Shown here: positions 2,537 to 42,433 of the stretch, piece after piece
Position numbering within the stretch: the stretch's first letter is position 1
How the letters are laid out: the number at the start of each line of letters is the position of its first letter
Assembly (NCBI GenBank): GCA_963921795.1
Contig: OY997654.1
Span: 4,673,555-4,737,554, forward strand
DNA from: Nannobrachium achirus
Lineage: Eukaryota; Chordata; Actinopteri; Myctophiformes; Myctophidae
DNA length: 64,000 nt
Reading direction: 5' to 3'
Notes under the pieces: generated by a model
The model's database searches: none
Told to the model about the DNA's origin: nothing
Seen by the model: the letters and a program-made list of their open reading frames with translations, nothing else
Program-made: the position numbers and the translations under genes

Positions 2537-3024
2537 ATGTAGCTTAGGGTGGATCTTAAATGACCTTTTTTAGATTTTCTTGAGTCTCACCCCCCAATTA
2601 TGTTCCAATGTACAAAAAACTGCTTTGGTCAAAATTTGGTTGAATTTCAAGCATATTTAGAGGTAGCTCAATCAAGCCAAAGATTGTACATTTTATTGGT
2701 CAAAATCGAATTGCACTGCAGGCACATTTAAGTTATACATTACACATTATTCTTATACTAATCACAGAAATTATATTTTTTTAAGCTTACAAATCTAAAC
2801 ACAAATCTGATTACATGTTTGTCATATGTCGAACCAGAATTAATATATTGTAGGAAATAGCAAAGCAAAGAATGACAAATTGCTATTTTTCATTTAACGT
2901 GCACAATGACATGTCTTTATTGCTTCAATCATACTCACAACACACAACAAGCACACAGCCTCACTTCCTTGTTTACCCCCAAAACCCCTGAAAGTCACTG
3001 CAGTATTTAATAGTAATTCAGTAG

Positions 3025-3432
3025 TTACTGATCAATTAAAGTTTGTTTACGGCTATCGGGATACTTGTGCCGATGGTTCTGCACAATTTGCAGCAAGTAT
3101 TGGAGTTGGGACTCATCTTTAGTAATGAGACCACAATATTCTTGTATTAGGGCAACCCCACGCTCTGCATGATCATTGACAACATTCATCGCCTTCACTA
3201 CAGCCAGAGCTTCTTGGTAGTCCACCCTGGGCTCCCACTCATCGGGATCAACGTCAAGGAAGTCATCTGGGAGATCCATCATTTTGAAAAGCACCTTGGA
3301 TTTGGGAGACACAAAATCTTCAATGTTCTTCCTTGCAATTGTTCCAAGGTCAACAGTAATTCTCTTCATATGCCCCTGTTCACCATAAGTGATTGGAAAA
3401 CCTTTGAGAAGCAGCTTTAGACACCTCAGCAT
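3025..3432 (-). pseudogene. Inverted left-arm copy of the same transposon protein
   Basis: This minus-strand frame repeats the protein of the right arm from RITVDLGTIARKN through LPDDFLDVDPDEWEPR, VVNDHAERGVALIQEY and HKYPDS to the stop. Only a few residues differ, for example SPKSK against FPKSK and DSRKQ against DSHKQ. The segment upstream of the shared region is deleted relative to the right arm, so it is shorter. The close identity implies either a recent inverted duplication or gene conversion between the arms. Confidence 0.6.
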
Positions 3433-3744
3433 TTATTGATGAACCGGATACCTTGAGCAGCGATGTATCTGGTTCAGAGCTCCAGTAGCTACCCATCATG
3501 CCCGTTGGATGGCAAAGGTTATTTATTGTTTGAAGATCTGGATGTTTCATGGCCAATTCAAACTGACCCTCAGGGAAGAAAAAGCATGCATGGATTTGTG
3601 CATGTTTACAGTTTGCATTTATGTGAAGGCATGGATGATGGCACCTGTTGCTGTCAGCGCTCCACTAAATGACTTGGCAGCTGTTAAAATCGTTGCTGGA
3701 ATATTCATCAATAAATGCTGAGGTGTCTAAAGCTGCTTCTCAAA

Positions 3745-4226
3745 AGTGTTCCAATCACTTATGGTATTTGGCTCCAGAGATCGTCAGACTTGCAATGTTT
3801 GACAGTCAATTGAGCGCGCAAACGAAGAGGCTGATGGTGAGAGCCATGAAAGATGGAAATGAAGATGATGAACAGGGGCATATGAAGAGAATTACTGTTG
3901 ACCTTGGAACAATTGCAAGGAAGAACATTGAAGATTTTGTGTTTCCCAAATCCAAGGTGCTTTTCAAAATGATGGATCTCCCAGATGACTTCCTTGACGT
4001 TGATCCCGATGAATGGGAGCCCAGGGTGGACTACCAAGAAGCTCTGGCTGTAGTGAAGGCGATGAATGTTGTCAATGATCATGCAGAGCGTGGGGTTGCC
4101 CTAATACAAGAATATTGTGGTCTCATTACTAAAGATGAGTCCCAACTCCAATACTTGCTGCAAATTGTGCAGAACCATCGGCACAAGTATCCCGATAGCC
4201 ATAAACAAACTTTAATTGATCAGTAA
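3745..4226 (+). pseudogene. Transposon-borne protein fragment, right arm copy
   Basis: The open frame encodes about 160 residues starting near APEIVRLAMFD, with RITVDLGTIARKN, LPDDFLDVDPDEWEPR, the conserved-looking VVNDHAERGVALIQEY and HRHKYPDS near its end, and stops at TAA. I recall VND.AERGVAL-type proteins as recurrent, poorly characterised products linked to animal transposons, but cannot name the family. No catalytic motif is visible and no upstream exon was found. It is the longer of the two inverted copies and looks like the C-terminal exon of a larger gene whose 5' part is missing. Confidence 0.6.
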
Positions 4227-4855
4227 CTACTGAATTACTATTAAATACTGCAGTGACTTTCAGGGGTTTTGGGGGTAAACAAGGAAGTGGGACTGTGTGC
4301 TTGTTGTGTGTTGTGAGTGTGATTGAAGAGTGTGCAATAAAGACATGTCATTGTGCACGTCAAATGAAAAATAGCAAATTGTCATTCTTTGCTTTGCTAT
4401 TTCCTACAATACATTAATTCTGGATTGACATATGACAAACATGTAATCAGATTTGTGTTTAGATTTGTAAGCTTAAAAAAATATAATTTCTGTGCTTAGT
4501 ATAAGAATAATGTATAATGTATAACTTATATGTGCCTGCAGTGCAATTCGATTTTGACCAATAAAATGTACAATCTTTGACTTGATTGAGCTACCTCTAA
4601 ATATGCTTCAAATTCAACCAAATTTGAACCAAAGCAGTTTTTTGTACATTGGAACATAATTCGGGGGTGAGACTCAAGAAAATCAAAAAAAGGTAATTTA
4701 AGATCCACCCTAATGTAGCTCAATCTTACCTAAAATATTATGGTAAGATTGTGATTATGGTAAGCTTACGTTTCATATCGCATTCACCTTACCTGTAACT
4801 TTCACTACTCCCAGAAAAAAAAAACATTTTGAAAAAGAAAAAATATATATATATA

Positions 4856-5721: not shown

Positions 5722-5768
5722 ACTACTATATAGTGTTTGTTCAGTAACAGTGTTAAATAGCTCTATAT
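5722..5768. repeat. Isolated partial monomer of the 60-bp satellite
   Basis: TAGTGTTTGTTCAGTAACAG and AACAGTGTTAAATAGCTCTA match the satellite unit at 876-2123, about 3.6 kb away. It is one partial unit, just beyond the 3' side of the Ig exon, next to a fragment with CCGATCCGATCACGTGATCG that looks like another transposon end. Confidence 0.85.
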
Positions 5769-5814
5769 GGGATTGGGGATGAAGGGTAAATGACACTCTT
5801 ACCAACAATCTTAC

Positions 5815-6174
5815 CAACAACAATGAGCTGGACCAAACTGCTTCTGTGCGGGGTTGGAACGTCGTTGGTTATTGCAGAACACTTGTAGGTCCCATTGTCT
5901 GAGATCTGCACCCTGGACAGCTTCAGTGAGATGTTACCATGAGACAACTCTTCATGAAACAGGGTTGTCCTCTGTTTGTACGACGGGTAGGTATCTGTGA
6001 AGCCGTTACGTCCATCTTGGAGAAGGTACACTCCTTCTGGCTTCAGGTCAGGTCTGGTCCACTCCACCGTCTGGTACTCCATGTTGACAGGTGGTTCAAT
6101 GTGACATGGAAGGATGACATCATCTCCCTCTTTAACCCGCACAGGCTGAGAAGACCCGATGACCTGACGTTGTC
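5815..6174 (-). CDS. Ig V-set exon of a butyrophilin/B7-like receptor
   Basis: The exon is 360 nt and codes about 120 residues of an immunoglobulin V domain. Visible hallmarks are the first cysteine in DDVILPCHIEP, the core tryptophan in VEWTRPDLKP, the segment SYKQRTTLF, and the second cysteine in DNGTYKCSA after ISLKLSRVQIS. A pyrimidine-rich acceptor ending TTCTAAG precedes it, and the donor G|GTAAGA follows. Both boundaries are phase 1, the usual arrangement for Ig exons, and the residues before the domain (QRQVIGSSQP) resemble fish butyrophilin-like proteins. Such proteins are cell-surface members of the butyrophilin/MOG/B7 group, mostly immune. No leader, constant-domain, transmembrane or B30.2 exon was found nearby. 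It could be one exon of a larger gene extending beyond the repeats, or an orphaned exon. Confidence 0.85.
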
Positions 6175-6369
6175 CTTAGAACAAAACAAAATCATTCATT
6201 ACATACTGCAGATGTACTGTATGCTGTTCACTTGTACACATGTTAAGTAAGATTAAGTTGTGTCCTGTAATGTTACAGTACTGTATTAAATGGAGGCCTT
6301 GTGTTATTTGCTTTTTGGGCCCCAGGGGGCCACATCAAGGGCACTGGGGGCTCCTGGGTAAACGCTACT

Positions 6370-30150: not shown

Positions 30151-31312
30151 TCATCCCCACCTCTTCTCATTCACACAGGCTCCCTTTAACAGACATAGTT
30201 CACTCCATGGTTACAGCTGTATTGTAAAGTTTCTCAACCTACAGATACTTGTAATGAAGTTAGCTTCTTTCTGACAAGCGCCACATAATAGTGCTGGAAT
30301 GTCGCCGATCCGCGATGCCCCCGCATCGCTCCGTTATGTCAAGAAGTAAACCATCACACTACAATGTAGTGACTACATGGTATTAGGGTAACATTTTCTG
30401 CTGCTTGGAGGGGCACGTTTGTTTTGGTGACGGGGGATCTTGTCTGATCCGCCGACCCACCTCCGACAAGTGCACTCACTGCAATGCACCGTGGTATCGG
30501 ACGCTGCCATGAGCAATATCGGATGAGAGTACCAATTCCGCATCCCTGCCCGCAACGGTGTCAGGCATCGTTACCTGACACATGAAGTGCTGTAGCAGCT
30601 TGTCCATAATGTTACCATAAACATTGTCAACTTTGTCATCATGATTTGAAAGCTACAACACGAAGCTGTCAGGTAAACAAACAAATCATGTAAATAAAAC
30701 AACTTCACGTTACCTTGCACAGAAGTGTGGCAGTAGCTTGTACATAACATCACCAGCAACATGTTGAACTTTGTCTTTATCCACATCATGATTTGAAAGC
30801 TACGACACTAAGATGAGTGTGCAGGTTATGACCGATGTAATAAGTCACTCTTGACAAACTTTCTTTAACTACAGAGGTTGTTGTTTATGTTTATTTTCGC
30901 GAACGCTGGTGAATGCTAACCTCTGGTGAGTAGCTACTAGCTAACCCTAACTAACTAAAAACAATTGGAAACGCAGCTGGTTTTCACGGCCTCTGCATCT
31001 GCGCAGAGCTGCAGTCAAGTGAGCAATATGCGCTACTTTACTTTCGGTTTCATCCAAGAGGGCGATAGCAAGGGCTATGTTCCGTGAACAAATTTAGTGT
31101 CAGCAAATATAAGACTTTCGGTGTCAATCTCTTCAGAATAAGAGTACCCCTAAAGCCATTGAAAACGATTCATTTGTATATGATATAGGTCTACACATTA
31201 AAAATATAGATTAAGCATTTAATTGAAGCTGTACAACGAAAATTATGTTTCTGTGTAAAAATAACGTTTTAATGACAAAAATATATATATACAACTAGAT
31301 AATTGCTCTTAA
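30151..31312. other. Non-coding stretch with ~140-bp direct repeat
   Basis: The block at about 30580-30670 (CAACTTTGTCATCATGATTTGAAAGCTAC) recurs at about 30725-30812 with changes. I see no exon. Confidence 0.5.
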
Positions 31313-32161
31313 ATGGAGTGCATAGCCTTTACAAATTGGACACTGGAGAGCAGACGGCTCTTCGTGTCGGCACTTTTGACACACGCACGCGTTCACAGAG
31401 ACCTCCTCTATCACACCACACTCTCCGCTAAGCGGGAGAGGTGGCATTGCAAAATTTGCTGGCCATCCACGGCGTCCAGTGGGGCCAGGTGCCAAAAAAA
31501 CTCCTCAAATGGCGCAGTTTTCCGACTCTAGCGGGCGCTGGAGAGGAGACGGCTCTTCGTGTCGGCACTTTTGACACACGCACGCGTTCACAGAGACCTC
31601 CTCTACCACACCACACTCTCCGCTAAGCGGGAGAGGCGGCATTGCAAAATGTTATGGCCGTCCAGTGCGGCCAGGTGCTAAAAAAAGTCCTCAAATGGCG
31701 CCGTTTTCCGACTTTAGTGGGCGCTGGAGAGGAGACGGCTTTTCGTGTCGGCACTTTTGACACACGCACGCGTTCACAGAGACCTCCTCTATCACACCAC
31801 ACTCTCCGCTAAGCGGGAGAGGCGGCATTGCAACTACTGCAGGCCGTCCAGTGCAGCCAGGCGCTCAAAAAGGCCTCAAAAGGCACCATTTTCCGTCTGC
31901 ATTTTTTGCAGGTTGTTTTCATTTTCTGAAATCAATAAATACTCACTTTCTAATCCACACATGTTATACCTATACATATACACCTATACATATACATGGG
32001 AATGGGCTAACACGTTTACACTGTCAGTCAGCAATTATTTTTTTTACACTGCACACAAAGAGCCTTCTCCTGTCTCCCCGAACGTGTGCATGTGTCAAAA
32101 GTTCTGACACCAAGAGCTGTCTGTTCTCCAGTGTCCAATTTGTAAAGGCTATCCACTCCAG
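31313..32161. mobile_element. TIR element carrying three ~190-bp tandem units
   Basis: TGGAGTGCATAGCCTTTACA and AATTGGACACTGGAGA at the left are mirrored by TCTCCAGTGTCCAATTTGTA and AAGGCTATCCACTCCA at the right. Three tandem units (starting about 31353, 31548 and 31734) each contain CTCTTCGTGTCGGCACTTTT and CTCCGCTAAGCGGGAGAG, the latter a small hairpin. No TSD is clear and no protein is encoded. Confidence 0.75.
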
Positions 32162-33631: not shown

Positions 33632-34798
33632 GAGTTGCGCAACCCAGCACTCTTTAGCTAGTGGAGATGTGGTGTAATGTCATGATTCCTAATTACATTT
33701 GTTCAACACAAAATGCTGTGTTCAAGTTCAGGAGACTTCGGAAAAAAGCAATTTACCTGAATGCTGAGTTCTGTTTCCACTAATTGGTGTTAATAAAATG
33801 TTGCCTTCAATGCCTTGGCTCCAAGTGTGGCTATGCGCCTTATTGTCCCTTTAGGATCCTTCTGCCGTGGGCCGGCAGAAGACTTAGGTGTGCGTAGCAT
33901 TCCTGTGCACATCCTCATCATCCATCTACTACTACAATTCTTTCTTATCCCATGTTAAAGCCCTACAATAATATCCTGTTCAGAAATATTAAGGCCATGT
34001 TATCCTGGGTAATTGTTTAATCAATCAGTAGTTCAGTTCAGTACACTCACTAATAGGTAGGTTAAAACACAGTTTGCTTTGACACATGAAGATATGATCA
34101 TACGGTGTGACACTAAATCATTTGGTGTGACATTCCAAATAGTGAGAAATCATACCTTTATTAATGATTAAACCAAAAAAATGTTTATGGATTACATAGA
34201 GAATATTATCAGGAAGAGTCACAAATATGTGTGTAATTTTAGAGAAGGTTTTGACAGAATACATTTAAAATATGTTGTAAGATCATGAACATGGGCCTCA
34301 CACAGAGTGTCGATTATGAAAAAAATATACAGATATAATTAATTTTCAAAAAACTATAGTGGATCACTGGTTAGTTATGATAAAGGACTTTGATAAAGTG
34401 AGTAACTTAAGAAAGATGTACTCCATTTTCATTTTATGAACAATTATTTTCATGTCACACCATATGACGATTTTAGGCACAAGTACAACAAACTGCTGAA
34501 TAAAGTCTGATTCCAATAAAATATCTAAAAACAAAATGTATTTCCATAAGGTTGAGAGTGAGTAGAACAAAAGTAAATAACTTTTATGCCTGCAATTTAA
34601 AGTTTTTTTAAAAACACATTTTTTGGGGCGTCACGTCACTGACCCATACACATATTTTTGTTATATGGCTTTGTTCAAATGCCTAATTTATATTTTTAAT
34701 GAGCATATAATTAGCAAATTCAACGTTTTTCAATGGAATTAATTACGAGCATTTTACTTTGAAGGCGAATGCTTCAAACCGGAAGTCTTATATTTGCC

Positions 34799-34936
34799 GC
34801 GTGTATGTGTCTACAGGAGAGGTTGAGGCCGATCGCCCCCCGCTACCCCCGCCTCCCCGTTTTTTGCTCCCAGACCACGCCCCCGACCGTCGCGATTGGC
34901 CGGCTGTACTCTGCTGTACTTCCTGGCCATGTCCTG
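34799..34936 (+). repeat. MULE left TIR
   Basis: The 138-bp partner of the right TIR, ending CCTGGCCATGTCCTG. TSD ATATTTGCC abuts it at 34790-34798. Confidence 0.95.
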
Positions 34937-36166
34937 TGTGTATTGTTGTTGTTGTCGCGTCGTACTAGTGCTGTCACGCGTAGAAGGATGTTTGAGAGAG
35001 ATGAGATTCAATTTATTGTCAGTGTACAGTACAAGTACAGTACAGTACAGCGAAAAGTATTTTCACATCTCATACGCGGAGACGTTTGAATACGCGGAGA
35101 CGTTTGGACTTGTGTCAAAATGAAAATGCGCGTGATTTACAACGCAGCCGACCGACCGATGACAATATTGTTGTTGGACCGTCGCTAAATACCATCTAAT
35201 GATGTAAAATTAGCGTGGCATTACTGCCCACAGAAAAGCATGATATCGATGTTGCTTCATGTTTGGGGTTTATTTTCAGACAACAGAGTGTGACTGCAGG
35301 TTTGGGAAGAGAGGGAGAGGGGGGAAAAACGTCTGGAGACTGATGCTCTAGTCTAAAGTAGCCAGCGTGGAATCAGACTATTTTGAGTTCATTTTATTAT
35401 TGTTATTATTATTATTATGTTTGGGAAGAGAGGGGGGGGGACGTCTGGAGACTGAAGTAGCCAGCGTGGAATCAGGCTATTTTGAGTTCATTTTATTATT
35501 GTTATTATTATTATTATTATTAAGGACCAACTGTGGGGGGGGAAAAAAAATTACTGTACCACGTGAATGGCGTGGCATTACAGCCCACCACATAAATAGG
35601 TCTAATTGCACACCATAGCCTACCACAAGAGATAAAGCATTTACATTTTTTATTTGACAAGCTTGGGAGAGAAGACTTGTAATTGAACGTATGGGTAGCC
35701 TAGTATATACATAGAGATGATTAATGAGGTGTTATATTGATGCTAATTCTACACCACCTGAAAGGTAGATATATGAGCCATCAGAATTCCATCCATTCCT
35801 CCTCCTACATTATTCTATAGGCCTATTGTCTGCATGACATCATTGTTAGAGATGCTTGATGAGGCGTTACATTAGATCAGACAAATATACTTCAAAAGGT
35901 ACATAATGTTCGAAAATAGCAGATCTACAAGCTCACAACGCGTCGTTGCAACCCCTGCTAAATACATAAATTGTACTGTGTGAAGTGCTCTCCTGAGTGA
36001 CCACTTCATCAATGCAGTGGGAGCAGTGTGGGACTAAAAAGTACTAGAATAGTATACATTGTTTATATAGTATACAAACATAAATGAGGGGACATTAGTT
36101 CAGTTTTGATACACTTTAATGTAAAATTCACAGTAAAAATGAATGTGCAGTTACAACTGTTATACC

Positions 36167-37008
36167 CAGTAGTGCTTTGGGGGCCGGACGGGACCGGACG
36201 CCGTGTGGCCGGAAATATTTCCCCACATGCACGCGCACGGACGGCACCGAACGGTGCACAAGCGTGTAAACGCGTGCATACCCCCCCGCGAGAGCCGCGA
36301 CAACCCCCCACCCCGCGAATCCGCGATAACTAGGCCTACAAGCAGTGTTGCAGTGGTCTTGGGTCGCGCGCCCCCGACGACCCATATCTTTTTTGAGCCG
36401 GGGTCTCGCACCCACCGAAGTTCACACATTGACAACCGTTTAACAAAGAAACTAGCCGATTTGCATATCAATAGACCTGTATAGTAGGTGTCGAGCGACG
36501 TCCGCGACCCCCCAAACATTGAATCACCTCTGCACCACTGCCTACAAGCAATACTTTTATCAGTGGCTACTACTTCGCATAACAGGTTTCTAGTGGACGG
36601 TGAATGTGTGAGCGTCCTCAAGCCTCTATTCATATGGATAGCCTACTTTAACACCTAGGTTTCCAGCTGTGACTGCATGTGCATGTGTCGATATGTGTGT
36701 GTCCTCTCCTCATACATGGCTGATGGCTCCATATTAGGCTATTTAGTGTTTGAGATTCGTTCAAGGCAAACTTTGTTTCTCTATCCTACTGCAGCGCTGT
36801 ATTTTCTAAATGAATTAAAAGAAAGTAGAACATAAAATCTTAAGTAACAATGCAAATGTAATTAAGACTAGACAACTATTGTTTTCCCACCATTAGATCT
36901 GCTGACATCCTTTCTATCTAAATAGCCTCTAGAGGCGCGTGCACGCGCGTGCACGTGACGTCAATAAATGACTGTCCGCCCGGAAAAAAAAATCCCAAAG
37001 CACCACTG
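36167..37008. mobile_element. 842-bp hAT MITE inside the MULE 3' region
   Basis: CAGTAGTGCTTTGGG and CCCAAAGCACCACTG are 15-bp TIRs with one mismatch. The perfect 8-bp TSD GTTATACC lies at 36159-36166 and 37009-37016. It landed in a tandemly duplicated ~70-bp segment (ATGAATGTGCAGTTACAACT at 36139 and 37069). It lies downstream of the transposase stop, so coding is untouched. Confidence 0.93.
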
Positions 37009-37252
37009 GTTATACCAGGGCAGTGCAACAAAAAGTTTCAACTTCAAATAAAGTGGCAGTAAAAGTTAAAATGAATGTGCAGTTACAACTGTTATACCAG
37101 GGCAGTGGAATACAAATGACAAATATACAATAAAAAGGTGTATTTAGCAGTATCTTCAGCAGCAGTGTCACAATGTGAAAATGAAGCAGAAAAGGCAGGC
37201 AGAATAATTCACTCATATTCACTTGTAATTCAGACTCCACATCCTCACAACA

Positions 37253-40200
37253 TTACTTGTTGGGATGTGGGTGATTATCCTCCACAGAATCTGCCAAATT
37301 GTGGTGTGGAAAAAGTCGCCGTTTCTTGTTCGCAGAGTAGGGATGGTCAGTGCTGCAGCTACTCGGTGACTGTGACGCAGACAGAGTTGCCAGAGATCGA
37401 CGCCTCTTACACGACCCAACAGGCACTCGACGGCCAGATGAACCTGGCTGACATCTAATGATTGGGCCTGATCGTTTCGCTCCTCGCCTGATGGCTGTCG
37501 CTCCTTTAGGAGAGCCAGAGGCAGCAGCTGCAGCCAGAACAGCTTGTGTCCGCTTGAGAAGATCAGCGACATCGCGAGTAGCAACCGATGAACCGATCGA
37601 TGGATTATTTACCAAGGAAGCCATGGCTCTACGCAGATCATTCATCATGGTGGTGTGGTGGTCCGGTGTAGTGTCTGGCGTTTCTGTGAAAAAAAAGGTG
37701 AAACTTTACAACACAACCAGTACACACAATAGGCTCCCACATGTCCATCAGCCTAAATATATTGTAGTATTTGATAATAGCATAGTAATATTTTACATGT
37801 AATTAGGTACTTGTAACCAGCAAATGTATTTCTCTTACCCTCTTCGCCATGCACCACTGAAGGATGTTCCGTAGAATTCTCAGGGCCGGCTTCCTCGCCA
37901 TGTACCATGGAAGGATCAGAATTCTCTTCGTCACCACTTGGAGCAGACAACGGCACAGCAGAACGGGGTGGAGTGGAGTGGTCCTGATGGAGTGCAGGTG
38001 GCTTCTTTTTCATGGGAGTCAGAAAGCTCCCCAAGTTGGTTACATCAACTGAAACAGTGGATGAAATTGCAAATTGAAATCCACGTATATCCACAATTTG
38101 CAATAATAATGAGAAAATAGGCGGAGGGAACCCTGGAGGGAATATAAATAGCATATAGATACGTACCTCCTGTTATTTTCAACAGCTTCTTTTGCTGTTC
38201 TTCTGTCTCGGGCAGAAAGTTATTGGAACAGCAATGAAATGTCTTTAAGACCACAGCCTGGTGTTTGCACGGAGCCCCGGTTTGCCCCACTGGACAGGTA
38301 CACAGTTCCAACTCCATATCCACATCATAGGTCTGTCCTGGAGTGGAGCAGCTGTTCACCACAAAATGGCTTGCATCAATCTGAAAAAGCATACATTTTT
38401 AAATTAAAATTAATAAAAACAGAAGCAAACCACATACCATGAAAGCCAACAGTTAGCAAAAAGGAGACATTCATGACGAGGAAACTTACCTTACGAATGT
38501 CAGATGCCTTGAGCCTGCTTGTCCTTGGGAGGAACCGTGATCTTTGGACGGCTCCCCACCGCTTAATACCAACATTGGTCAAGCGAGTCATGTAGTGCCC
38601 CTCAAGTCTGATGGTCAGCATATTGAAGAGCACTGGAAGGTTGTAGGTCATGGTACGCAGCAGGATTTTGTCCTTTAAGACTCTCATAGCTGCTTCGACA
38701 AAGTTGTTCGTGTTGTTCCCACGAGTCAGCATGGTGTTCCGGAAACTAAGAGCCCAAAACTCCCGACGGCTATACAGCTTCTCAAAGTAGATCAGGAACT
38801 TCCCATTTCTGAAATCAGTTATAAGAAAACAAATAGATAGTGAGGAAATGCATGAATTACTGTAGACATAGACATTTTACTGTTACATTTTCGTAACCTA
38901 ATGCACCCCAATTTCTGCTGTACATACCTCCTGACAACTGTGCTGGTTATGGCGTGTTGGTAGAGTTGCTCCATTCTTTCCACTGTATTGGCATACAGTA
39001 AGTCCTTCACAGTGGTGAAGAGAGACTGTCGGTCCTGCGACTCAACGTCATGCACTTTGTTCCACAGCCACCTCCAGACAGCTTGGAGGACGTGAAAGAT
39101 GCAAAGCAGCCTGATTGCTTCGGGGAACGCTCTGTGCAGTGCTGCTCGCTCTGCTGCACTGTCATCACTCAGGAAAATAGTGGGCCCTCTTTGGCCTCTT
39201 CCAGCAAAGGCCTGCTCTGGCAGCAATTCTTTCAGCAGCTCAAGACCCTCAAAAATGGTTGCTTCATCTTCGTTTTGAGTGAGGATGATCCCTAGCGGCA
39301 ACCCACCTGCACAGCTGTGTGTGAGAAGCAGAAATACACGACAGTTCTCTCTGTCCATATTTCCAGAGGAGTCGATGAAACAAAGTTCACCACTGTGACC
39401 TGTCTGATGCACACGCTTCATTAAGGGGGAGCAGATGGCAACAATAGGGGTCCCTGAAGCTGACGTGGTGAGCTTGGCACATGTCTCCTTGCATGTGTCG
39501 TTGTACTGCTCAACTTGTTTCTTAAGGGCAGCCAGCATGATTGGCCCTGTCCTCATGCCAAATTCCGCTGTATACATCGTTTTGTGCAGCCTGTAGAAAA
39601 AAATGTGTAATGATATTTATTTTATTATTTATCTGAAAGACACTGAAATACTGAGTAAGCCTGACTAAAAGTTATTAATCTGTTCATTGTCATTCACACC
39701 AAATGGAGGATTAAGTAAACTTTTAATCTTTTAATGTGCAGAATGCTTACCTCTGGGAAAACCCAAGGTCAGGGCAGGTGGCTCTGTCAGCAGCAGCATA
39801 TACATAGTTGGCACCAAACTCGGCTTGAAGCTCAACATTGAGGTCATCTAAGGCAGAAGATGGAGTGGCCCCTTTTTCAAAGTGTCTGGTTAAAGCCGCA
39901 ATGGCCTTTGGTCCAACATCTCTGTGTTTCAAAAAGTCAGCTGAATATATGTTGTGGTTATGGATGTTCTTGAGAGTTATCACAGTAGGATACTGTGGCA
40001 TGTGTTTGTCCTTACTCCTGAGAAAAAGAGAAAAAGATCACAAAATAAAATTAGACAATCAGCACAAAATATGTTAACCTTTGTGGAATAGTTGCATTTG
40101 AATTACCGGTAAAGCACTTAATTTGAATGTACAAACTCACCGTGACTTTCTGCCGCCTACAGTTTCAGTGACGCACTTCACGGTCACGGTCATTGTAGCT

Positions 40201-40307
40201 GGACAGCCAGTGTTTTTGGATGTCGATCTGGTGCCTGCTGTGGCTGACCGCTCATACACATTGTGCTGACAGTTGCAGAGAACCTGAAACATATTTACAT
40301 ATAACAT
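37253..40307 (-). CDS. MULE transposase, seven exons, DDE plus SWIM finger
   Basis: Exons (minus): 40307/40283-40141, 40017-39751, 39590-38928, 38808-38490, 38380-38167, 38048-37839, 37683-37253 (stop TAA). All six introns are 109-160 bp with GT-AG ends, and every phase matches, giving about 756 residues from ATG 40307. The N-terminus has CNCQH, TGCPA and IHNHN, a WRKY/GCM1-like zinc finger. The MULE core shows D in CFIDSSGNMD (39371-39373), SDDSAAERAALHRAFP with CIFHVLQAVWRW, and E in NTNNFVEAAMR (38694-38696). A SWIM finger (CTCPVGQTGAPCKH) follows, then an acidic/basic tail with CKRRRS. Known role: cut-and-paste transposition with 9-bp target duplication. The start codon is the weak point; a spliced leader from the TIR is the alternative. 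Confidence 0.9.
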
Positions 40308-40395
40308 CAACACATTGTTCAACAATAATATTGTGTCTCAGTCGAATTAGTTATGTATAGATGATGGTTTCTCACATTACAGATAGTCTTCACTC

Positions 40396-40533
40396 CAGGA
40401 CATGGCCAGGAAGTACAGCAGAGTACAGCCGGCCAATCGCGACGGTCGGGGGCGTGGTCTGGGAGCAAAAAACGGGGAGGCGGGGGTAGCGGGGGGCGAT
40501 CGGCCTCAACCTCTCCTGTAGACACATACACGC
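40396..40533 (-). repeat. MULE right TIR, at the transposase 5' side
   Basis: It is the exact inverse of 34799-34936 by my reading. It lies immediately upstream of the transposase, as in other MULEs where the TIR supplies the promoter. GC-rich in the middle (CCCCCGCTACCCCCGCCTCC). A possible donor AAT|GTGAGA at 40376/40375 would make a leader exon that joins in frame to 40283, but that frame has no ATG in the TIR. Confidence 0.95.
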
Positions 40534-40542
40534 ATATTTGCC

Positions 40543-42433
40543 CGCTCTGACACCGGAAGTTCTATATTTGATCAGTTCACGGACCTGATAGTCTCGCGTA
40601 GCCAGACAACTGAGACGGGTATCTTGGGACAACTATTCCACAATCTCTGAATGCTATATAGAGTCTGGAACAGCAGCTCCCGAACGGCGAGTATTGAAAA
40701 CGGGCATTAACGTTAAAAAAAATATATTTTAAAATGTCATTTCTGCTAAGCAGCAAGCTAAACATGCTTATATGATTTTTATTTATATAATGATAAATAT
40801 GTGTGATGTGAGACTGAAACGGAAGTGACGTGGGGGCTTCACTTCCGCTTCATCTCTAGTCTCGCGTAGCCAGACAACTATTCCACAATCTCCGAATGCT
40901 ATATAGAGTCTGGAAGAGCAGCTCCCTAACGGCGAGTATCGGAAGTAGCCACTGCTGCACTGAACTGTAGTCCCATTGGAAACATAACAGAAACACAATA
41001 GCTCAGACAAAGTCATTCGAGCTGCCTATTATTGTTATGAGTGTATAGTTTATGAAACGTTTGAAAACATCATGAAGGTGACACCAATAACACCAGAGAA
41101 AGACAAAATAAAGCCCCCAGAAATGTTGAAAGGAGACAACGCTTCCAGTAGGACATGTTATTGCTACTGCACCAAGGGAGCGGTTGCGTCACATCCGCTT
41201 TATCTCGCACTCACCGTTTCTATTTCCGTCTGCCAGACTGTATGCCGGGAGCATTTGACCAAATCGCGGAGGCAACAGTCTGGCCACGCGAGACTACTTC
41301 ATCTCGCACTCATCGTTTCTTCCCCGGTTTGCCCAAGGAAGGTTAGGCAGGAACAGACAACACCCGAAAGTTGGCACACCATGGGACACCGCCATGACAC
41401 TTTTGGGTGGCGGAAGTGACGAAGTGCTCATAGACGCTAATGTTATTTTGGGTGGCCACCGGACGTGGCCACCCGCCACCCATGGAGCCTAGATGACGTT
41501 GGTGACTGTTCTTGCTGAGACCTTCTTTGGGTTTGCCCAAGAAAGAAGGTAGAGTCACCAAAACGGCTGGGCATCCGCCATTGACGCTCATGGGAGCCAA
41601 AACTGGGACCGGAAGTTGTGTGAACTGCAATGGAGTCCATGGCAGAAGGATGACAGCCAGCTGGACCATGCTTGTGAATAAATTATTTCTGAACGTTTGT
41701 CACTTTGTCAGTTAATCGGTCCAGGAATATAAAATAATGCATATCACAGGTTGTTTTCCAATCAATTGTTTTTTTATTTGCACACTGTATAATTTTATTG
41801 AGGCATCTAAACAGCGTCATCCTCCGTCATGTATCGTTTCTGGTAGTGTTGCCAGGTTCTGAGAAATAAGCAACCAGGCCTAGGAAAAAAAGACCAAAAT
41901 AACCAACTAGGGCCAGGCAGGTACTAGACTTTTATGAGCACTTACTGCTGTATTGAAAATAACCATCAACAAGCTATAGATCTGCTAAGATTTTGATAAC
42001 TTTTCAAATGCGACATTCTGCATAATGAGCACTTTCTATATTGGTACTTAAATTATATTTTAATATCATTCATTTTTAATTCCTGAGTTTAACTTGTGAG
42101 ATTATATCTAAATTGCTGTATTGATTGATTACTTTTACTACAGTTTGCAGAGACAGGTACAGAGAAGTAGCCAGGCTACAGTACAGTACAAGTTCTGCTA
42201 AAATTATTTTTCCAAAAAAGTATAAGTAGGCTATGGCTTGTTTCCATGGGGTCCTTTGTACTCAATTGATCGAAACATTGATAATATTGATGATACTTTT
42301 ACTCAAGTAAAAAAACGTTGGTACCACCACCACCACTTAGAACCACCGGTTAAAACAATAAAAAGCCCATTCCCTTGTTACTGATGATATCCTATGCAAA
42401 GTAGCCTACTGTGCTCCATCGGTCTCTTTCAAT
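40543..42433. other. Repeat-rich non-coding stretch
   Basis: Two direct copies of TAGTCTCGCGTAGCCAGACA followed by GAATGCTATATAGAGTCTGG lie at 40594-40720 and 40858-40950. An inverted relative (CAGTCTGGCCACGCGAGACT) lies near 41276-41295. The same family appears at about 55005-55030 and 55485-55545. A 10-bp hairpin GGGTGGCCAC / GTGGCCACCC lies near 41450. No gene recognised. Confidence 0.55.

Follow-up and report, generated by a model that had tools for sequence, protein, structure and literature searches.

A Mutator-like transposon with flawless ends and a transposase probably lacking its N-terminal exon(s) in a myctophid fish genome

Can a transposon whose two ends are flawless be taken to carry a complete transposase? 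The question is raised by a Mutator-like element (MULE) within a 64,000-nucleotide stretch of the genome of the fish Nannobrachium achirus (GCA_963921795.1, contig OY997654.1, positions 4,673,555 to 4,737,554), i.e., the whole stretch analysed here, hereafter the window. An earlier note, made from the sequence alone, had called this element apparently intact and recently inserted. The explanation we favour, at a probability of about two in three, is that this Mutator-like transposon has flawless ends but is missing the N-terminal exon(s) of its transposase gene, so that only a complete copy, acting in trans, would likely move it. The fish window holds the whole signature, namely matching terminal inverted repeats (TIRs), a target-site duplication (TSD) and a spliced gene encoding a DDE core and a SWIM zinc finger. 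It also illustrates that perfect ends can mask a shortened gene, such that a copy looks intact.

Ends, transposase gene and relatives

The first indication that the ends are sound comes from aligning the two TIRs (Table 1), which are reverse complements of each other at 138 of 138 bp, as had been claimed. The TSD, ATATTTGCC, likewise matches on both sides at 9 of 9 positions, and the bases adjoining the TIRs on the inward side differ between the two ends. The coordinates thus proved exact enough to define the family, as far as its ends are concerned, and with exact ends the family can be counted in any fish assembly. Zero differences in 138 bp put the divergence of the TIRs at no more than about 2.1% (95% upper bound), which makes a recent insertion plausible, although conversion can also produce identical TIRs. 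Within the 64 kb, one MULE copy was found, and no further TIR or piece of transposase.

The gene lies on the minus strand. From its first splice acceptor, seven exons join in one frame of 748 codons plus a stop, and the six introns, of 109-160 bp each, are all GT-AG. The frame of about 756 codons described earlier was recovered as well: it begins with the ATG at 40307, which precedes the acceptor by eight codons, and so runs through the tail of an apparent intron and across the acceptor. A random sequence of the same composition would stay free of stops over 748 codons with a probability of about 4e-16, and in the spliced sequence the two remaining frames contain 35 and 44 stops.

The D, D, E and SWIM motifs are all there, as the note had reported: D210, D279, E396, C491, C493, C502 and H504 occupy invariant columns in a 17-row alignment. 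Columns shared by 90% or more of 29 selected relatives were compared with the window protein, which keeps 68 of 72 and has gaps at five further ones. The Pfam SWIM family is matched at 20.3 bits (cut-off 19.6), and the Pfam MULE family at 25.5 bits (E 1.8e-5), slightly below its cut-off of 27.6. Among seven relatives scanned for the latter, P0001 (34.2), P0005 (33.9), P0020 (32.7), and P0008 and P0019 (both 27.8) pass, P0030 (26.7) falls under, and P0053 gave no match. A search of the sequences of solved structures with the transposase core found no believable match (best E 0.057). Taken together with the relatives described below, the long perfect TIRs, a TSD within the 8-11 bp of MULEs, the MULE-type DDE core and the SWIM finger uphold the assignment to the Mutator-like elements.

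A protein search gave 99 matches at E <= 0.01 among the 7,997 candidates scored, those sharing most words with the query. Their sources are teleosts, echinoderms, molluscs, arthropods, a nemertean, a bryozoan, a coral and metagenome contigs, and the best is a Carassius (goldfish) protein, P0001, 58% identical over 74% of the query. A tree of 41 rows was made from the 44 named matches and the window protein, with P0006, P0011, P0041 and P0081 left out as too short. In it the window protein falls in a clade of ten rows (support 100/99) whose other nine rows are all fish: Carassius P0001, Misgurnus P0002, Trematomus P0003, Chaenocephalus P0008, Genypterus P0009, Lampris P0021 and Dissostichus P0004, P0013 and P0032. 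These proteins are at most 61% identical to the window protein over the core, and its placement as sister to the notothenioid proteins is weak (89/68). That the DNA is from a fish, as the note had read it, is borne out by these nearest relatives and by the named matches of an immunoglobulin (Ig) exon elsewhere in the window.

We compared the pieces skipped, relative to P0001, by ten cyprinid-type gene models. Six of the ten skip pieces that end on window junctions: P0049, P0053, P0067 and P0074 at 137/358, P0096 at 48/358, and P0011, whose skip ends where residue 1 of the window protein begins. If such skips mark introns, as we infer from sequence comparison, their coincidence with the window junctions would support the splice model, and would also support 40284 as the acceptor of an intron with no exon upstream.

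The N-terminal region and the competing explanations

Relatives that reach the CQHN motif, which stands in the opening part of the window protein, mostly extend about 76-105 residues further upstream and carry a W-R-x(4)-T-x-P motif there; these extra residues are predicted to be part of a DNA-binding domain. With 21 relatives we built a profile for this region and ran it on 3,350 six-frame fragments of the window. No counterpart was detected (best E 1.4), the test being weaker if the region is spread over short exons. The fragment with the first exon scored 3.6 bits, and leave-one-out controls, in which the region was used whole, gave E values of 2e-23, 8e-37 and 7e-33. Of the 99 relatives, 35 show the region at E <= 1e-6, among them 14 that were not used for the profile. 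Within the fish clade of the window protein, P0001, P0008, P0009 and P0013 have it, P0004 matches it weakly and in part (14.9 bits), and the remaining four begin further in. The piece skipped by P0011 is 75 residues long, and the segment between the right TIR and the acceptor is too short for it because the gap measures 112 bp. The description of the copy as apparently intact therefore did not hold, both for want of this region and on account of an 842-bp insert nested in the element. With the N-terminal region missing, the copy does not have the complete transposase of an autonomous transposon, and the missing DNA-binding domain speaks against a complete MULE, not against a MULE.

On the explanation we favour, the full-length transposase of the family would consist, from the N-terminus onwards, of a DNA-binding domain, an RNase H-like DDE core and the SWIM finger; it would bind to the TIRs and cleave both ends, inserting the element with a 9-bp stagger. 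This copy or its parent would have lost the 5' exon(s) by an internal deletion next to the right TIR, possibly by the route of interrupted gap repair, which is a mechanism behind derivatives of maize MuDR. After such a deletion the ends would still be usable and the catalytic frame still open, with DNA binding likely crippled, and a complete relative would supply the enzyme in trans. The truncation may have come either before the last jump or after it.

Several observations weigh against this reading. A clear N-terminal region is lacking in 64 of the 99 relatives (weak, partial or no match), many of these being fragments or partial models that start further in. Among the cyprinid models, P0006 skips at 373/480, a mismatch with the window junctions at 358/465, and P0002, P0086 and P0099 show no clean breaks relative to P0001. 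A structure model that bears on the transposase fold was made from P0001 and not from the window protein. Moreover, ATGs within the TIR, when spliced to the acceptor, give four open frames of 766-790 codons and hence a possible replacement first exon.

This last point belongs to the main rival, under which the copy is autonomous as it stands: the shortened transposase would work, started either at the ATG at 40307 or from a TIR-derived first exon. The ATG-started frame of 756 codons and the four spliced ones would provide the start, the catalytic and SWIM residues are all retained, the C-terminal tail aligns with the tails of the long relatives, and the frame is still open. Nevertheless, we regard autonomy as unlikely, since the four relatives named above from its own clade possess the N-terminal region, the TIR-derived peptides are unlike that region, and the acceptor matches a boundary inferred in a cyprinid relative, which would place the read-through start in an apparent intron.

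It is similarly improbable that the element landed complete and lost its 5' exons later, by an ordinary deletion in place. The loss would then be young, as it lies next to the right TIR and the frame is open elsewhere, but a random deletion would have had to spare a right TIR that is untouched over 138 bp and has the same end point as the left one. A transposase-derived host gene would account for a conserved open frame with introns and for the weak Pfam match of its core to the RNase H-like family of ZSWIM1-3. We give such domestication very little credence, given that domesticated transposase genes as a rule lose their TIRs and TSD, both of which flank this gene in perfect form. An assembly artefact at the right end, with exons lost in assembly and the right TIR copied from the left, would also tell against a truncated transposon and would fit the identical TIRs and an exon loss abutting one of them, yet it is scarcely credible with a TSD that lies outside the TIRs and is exact on both sides, in a window free of any N.

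The nested insert and the surrounding window

The coordinates of the element and its parts are collected in Table 1.

Table 1. Parts of the Mutator-like element, in window positions
Feature	Position	Strand	Remark
Left TSD ATATTTGCC	34790..34798		
Left TIR, 138 bp	34799..34936	+	138/138 complementary to right TIR
Non-coding left part, downstream of transposase stop	34937..37252		Tandem duplications
Left 8-bp TSD GTTATACC of nested insert	36159..36166		
Nested 842-bp insert	36167..37008		15-bp terminal repeats starting CAGT, 14/15 matching
Right 8-bp TSD GTTATACC of nested insert	37009..37016		
Transposase exon 7 of 7, with stop codon	37683-37253	-	
Transposase exon 6	38048-37839	-	
Transposase exon 5	38380-38167	-	SWIM zinc finger C491, C493, C502, H504 at about 38302-38261
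Transposase exon 4	38808-38490	-	Catalytic E396, codon 38696-38694
Transposase exon 3	39590-38928	-	D210 codon 39373-39371; D279 codon 39166-39164; CIFH motif
Transposase exon 2	40017-39751	-	
Transposase exon 1 of this copy	40283-40141	-	Relatives have more coding sequence upstream
112 bp from right TIR to acceptor	40284..40395	-	Apparent intron rump; ATG at 40307 gives 756-codon frame
Right TIR, 138 bp	40396..40533	-	
Right TSD ATATTTGCC	40534..40542		

The insert in the left part is putatively of hAT type, going by its ends and TSD length alone: an 8-bp TSD and short TIRs are typical of hAT elements. When the insert is removed in silico, the MULE measures 4,885 bp and a tandem duplication of 44 bp, with copies 82 bp apart and 98% alike, is restored. 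As this duplication is whole again without the insert, the MULE or its parent must have received an insertion. The left part also contains a second tandem duplication, of 69-bp copies lying 99 bp apart. A frame of 160 codons at 36160-36642 falls almost wholly within the nested insert.

Outside the TSD, a short repeat like CCGGAAGTCTTATATTTG flanks the insertion at 34779-34796 and 40552-40569 and recurs at 31103-31122 (-), which argues that the MULE inserted into an older repeat or next to one. Directly to the right of the MULE stands an exact 23-bp direct repeat, TAGTCTCGCGTAGCCAGACAACT, at 40589-40611 and 40857-40879, followed by further repeated pieces.

Elsewhere in the window, an inverted repeat spans 2544-4713, with 2544-3386 and 3865-4713 being 96.7% identical over 849 bp and with additional 62-bp arms at 3382-3443 and 3704-3765. 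Both of its arms contain a related open frame, at 3025-3432 (-) and 3669-4226 (+), neither having a Pfam match; the 45 homologues of these frames are mostly from metagenome contigs, and one, at 62%, is from Artemia. A 60-bp minisatellite occurs at 880-1197 (5.3 copies) and 1636-2123 (8.1 copies), is 97-98% alike and is open in one frame, encoding YSNDYCHNIELFNTVTEQTL repeats. The Ig exon, a V-set exon at 5756-6175 (-), resembles butyrophilin and myelin-oligodendrocyte glycoprotein; of its 63 matches 34 carry an organism name, in every case that of a teleost fish. A 186-bp tandem repeat is found at 31343-31895 (2.9 copies, 90% matches). Rfam and tRNA scans of the window returned nothing.

Mutator-like elements in fishes and comparison with known systems

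How much a fish MULE adds depends on what has been reported. Dupeyron et al. 2019 (PMC6446971) describe limited evidence for MULEs in chordates, judge the Repbase MULE entries for zebrafish and mammals to be probably misidentified, and pose the real absence of MULEs from vertebrates as an open question. A 2026 survey of arthropods (PMC13359780) still states that few reports of animal MULEs exist. The MULE label itself is not new for fish, because RepeatMasker counts of MULE-MuDR for zebrafish, medaka and stickleback appear in PMC4746887. A literature search that took in few subscription journals, and neither Repbase nor Dfam, found no vertebrate MULE that had been delimited with its ends and a readable transposase. 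What is new here is thus a MULE whose ends are clearly delimited and whose transposase can be read, from a host group in which MULEs have been doubted, and the window MULE and its fish relatives argue for MULEs in vertebrates.

A second set of fish proteins sits among echinoderm ones, in a fork of ten rows holding both (100/99); the forks inside it that mix fish with echinoderms are supported at 89/79 and 87/81. Teleosts thus hold at least two lineages of this transposase family, which arose either by old descent or by transfer. We would tentatively go further, at somewhat less than even odds, and propose a living Mutator lineage in teleosts: complete, autonomous SWIM-MULEs of the clade of the window protein would still jump in this fish and drive deletion derivatives such as the window MULE, the doubt about vertebrates would be wrong, and the second fish lineage would point to exchange between phyla. 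Full-length relatives are, in any case, candidates for an active vertebrate Mutator. The fish gene models P0002 and P0053 fuse the transposase to retroelement domains (gag, reverse transcriptase), and these fusions are likely annotation joins of neighbouring repeats. Among viral contigs, 98 stretches matched the alignment pattern and none encoded a relative.

Among the nearest systems are the fish proteins of the same clade, four of the nine carrying the full N-terminal region. The SWIM MULEs of animals (e.g., Curupira and Ghost), as described in PMC6446971, likewise combine a DDE core of the MULE kind with a SWIM finger, and the 138-bp TIR and 9-bp TSD of the window MULE fall within the ranges of 14-500 bp and 8-11 bp given there; compared by description only, those groups differ from it in having no accepted vertebrate member. 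Its spacings of 69 residues from D to D and 117 from D to E are near the 60-76 and 120-135 given for most arthropod clades in PMC13359780.

ZSWIM1 and ZSWIM3 are host genes, whereas the window gene lies between TIRs. The core matches the Pfam ZSWIM1-3 RNase H-like family weakly, at 16.8 bits (cut-off 27.2), and the relative P0020 matches the ZSWIM3 N-terminal family at E 0.15, under the curated cut-off. Zisupton is a fish DNA transposon with long TIRs and a SWIM-type finger. Set against it by description only, the window MULE differs in the length of the TSD, which is 8 bp in Zisupton and 9 bp here. The name Zisupton occurs in PMC7599744.

The structure model of P0001 has as its best match among solved structures the IS256-type ISCth4 (6xgx), at 14% identity. 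Because the VIA list is mostly confined to model residues 301-622, it does not address the N-terminal fold. Compared with the window MULE, ISCth4 is a prokaryotic insertion sequence and is without introns; it also has no SWIM finger.
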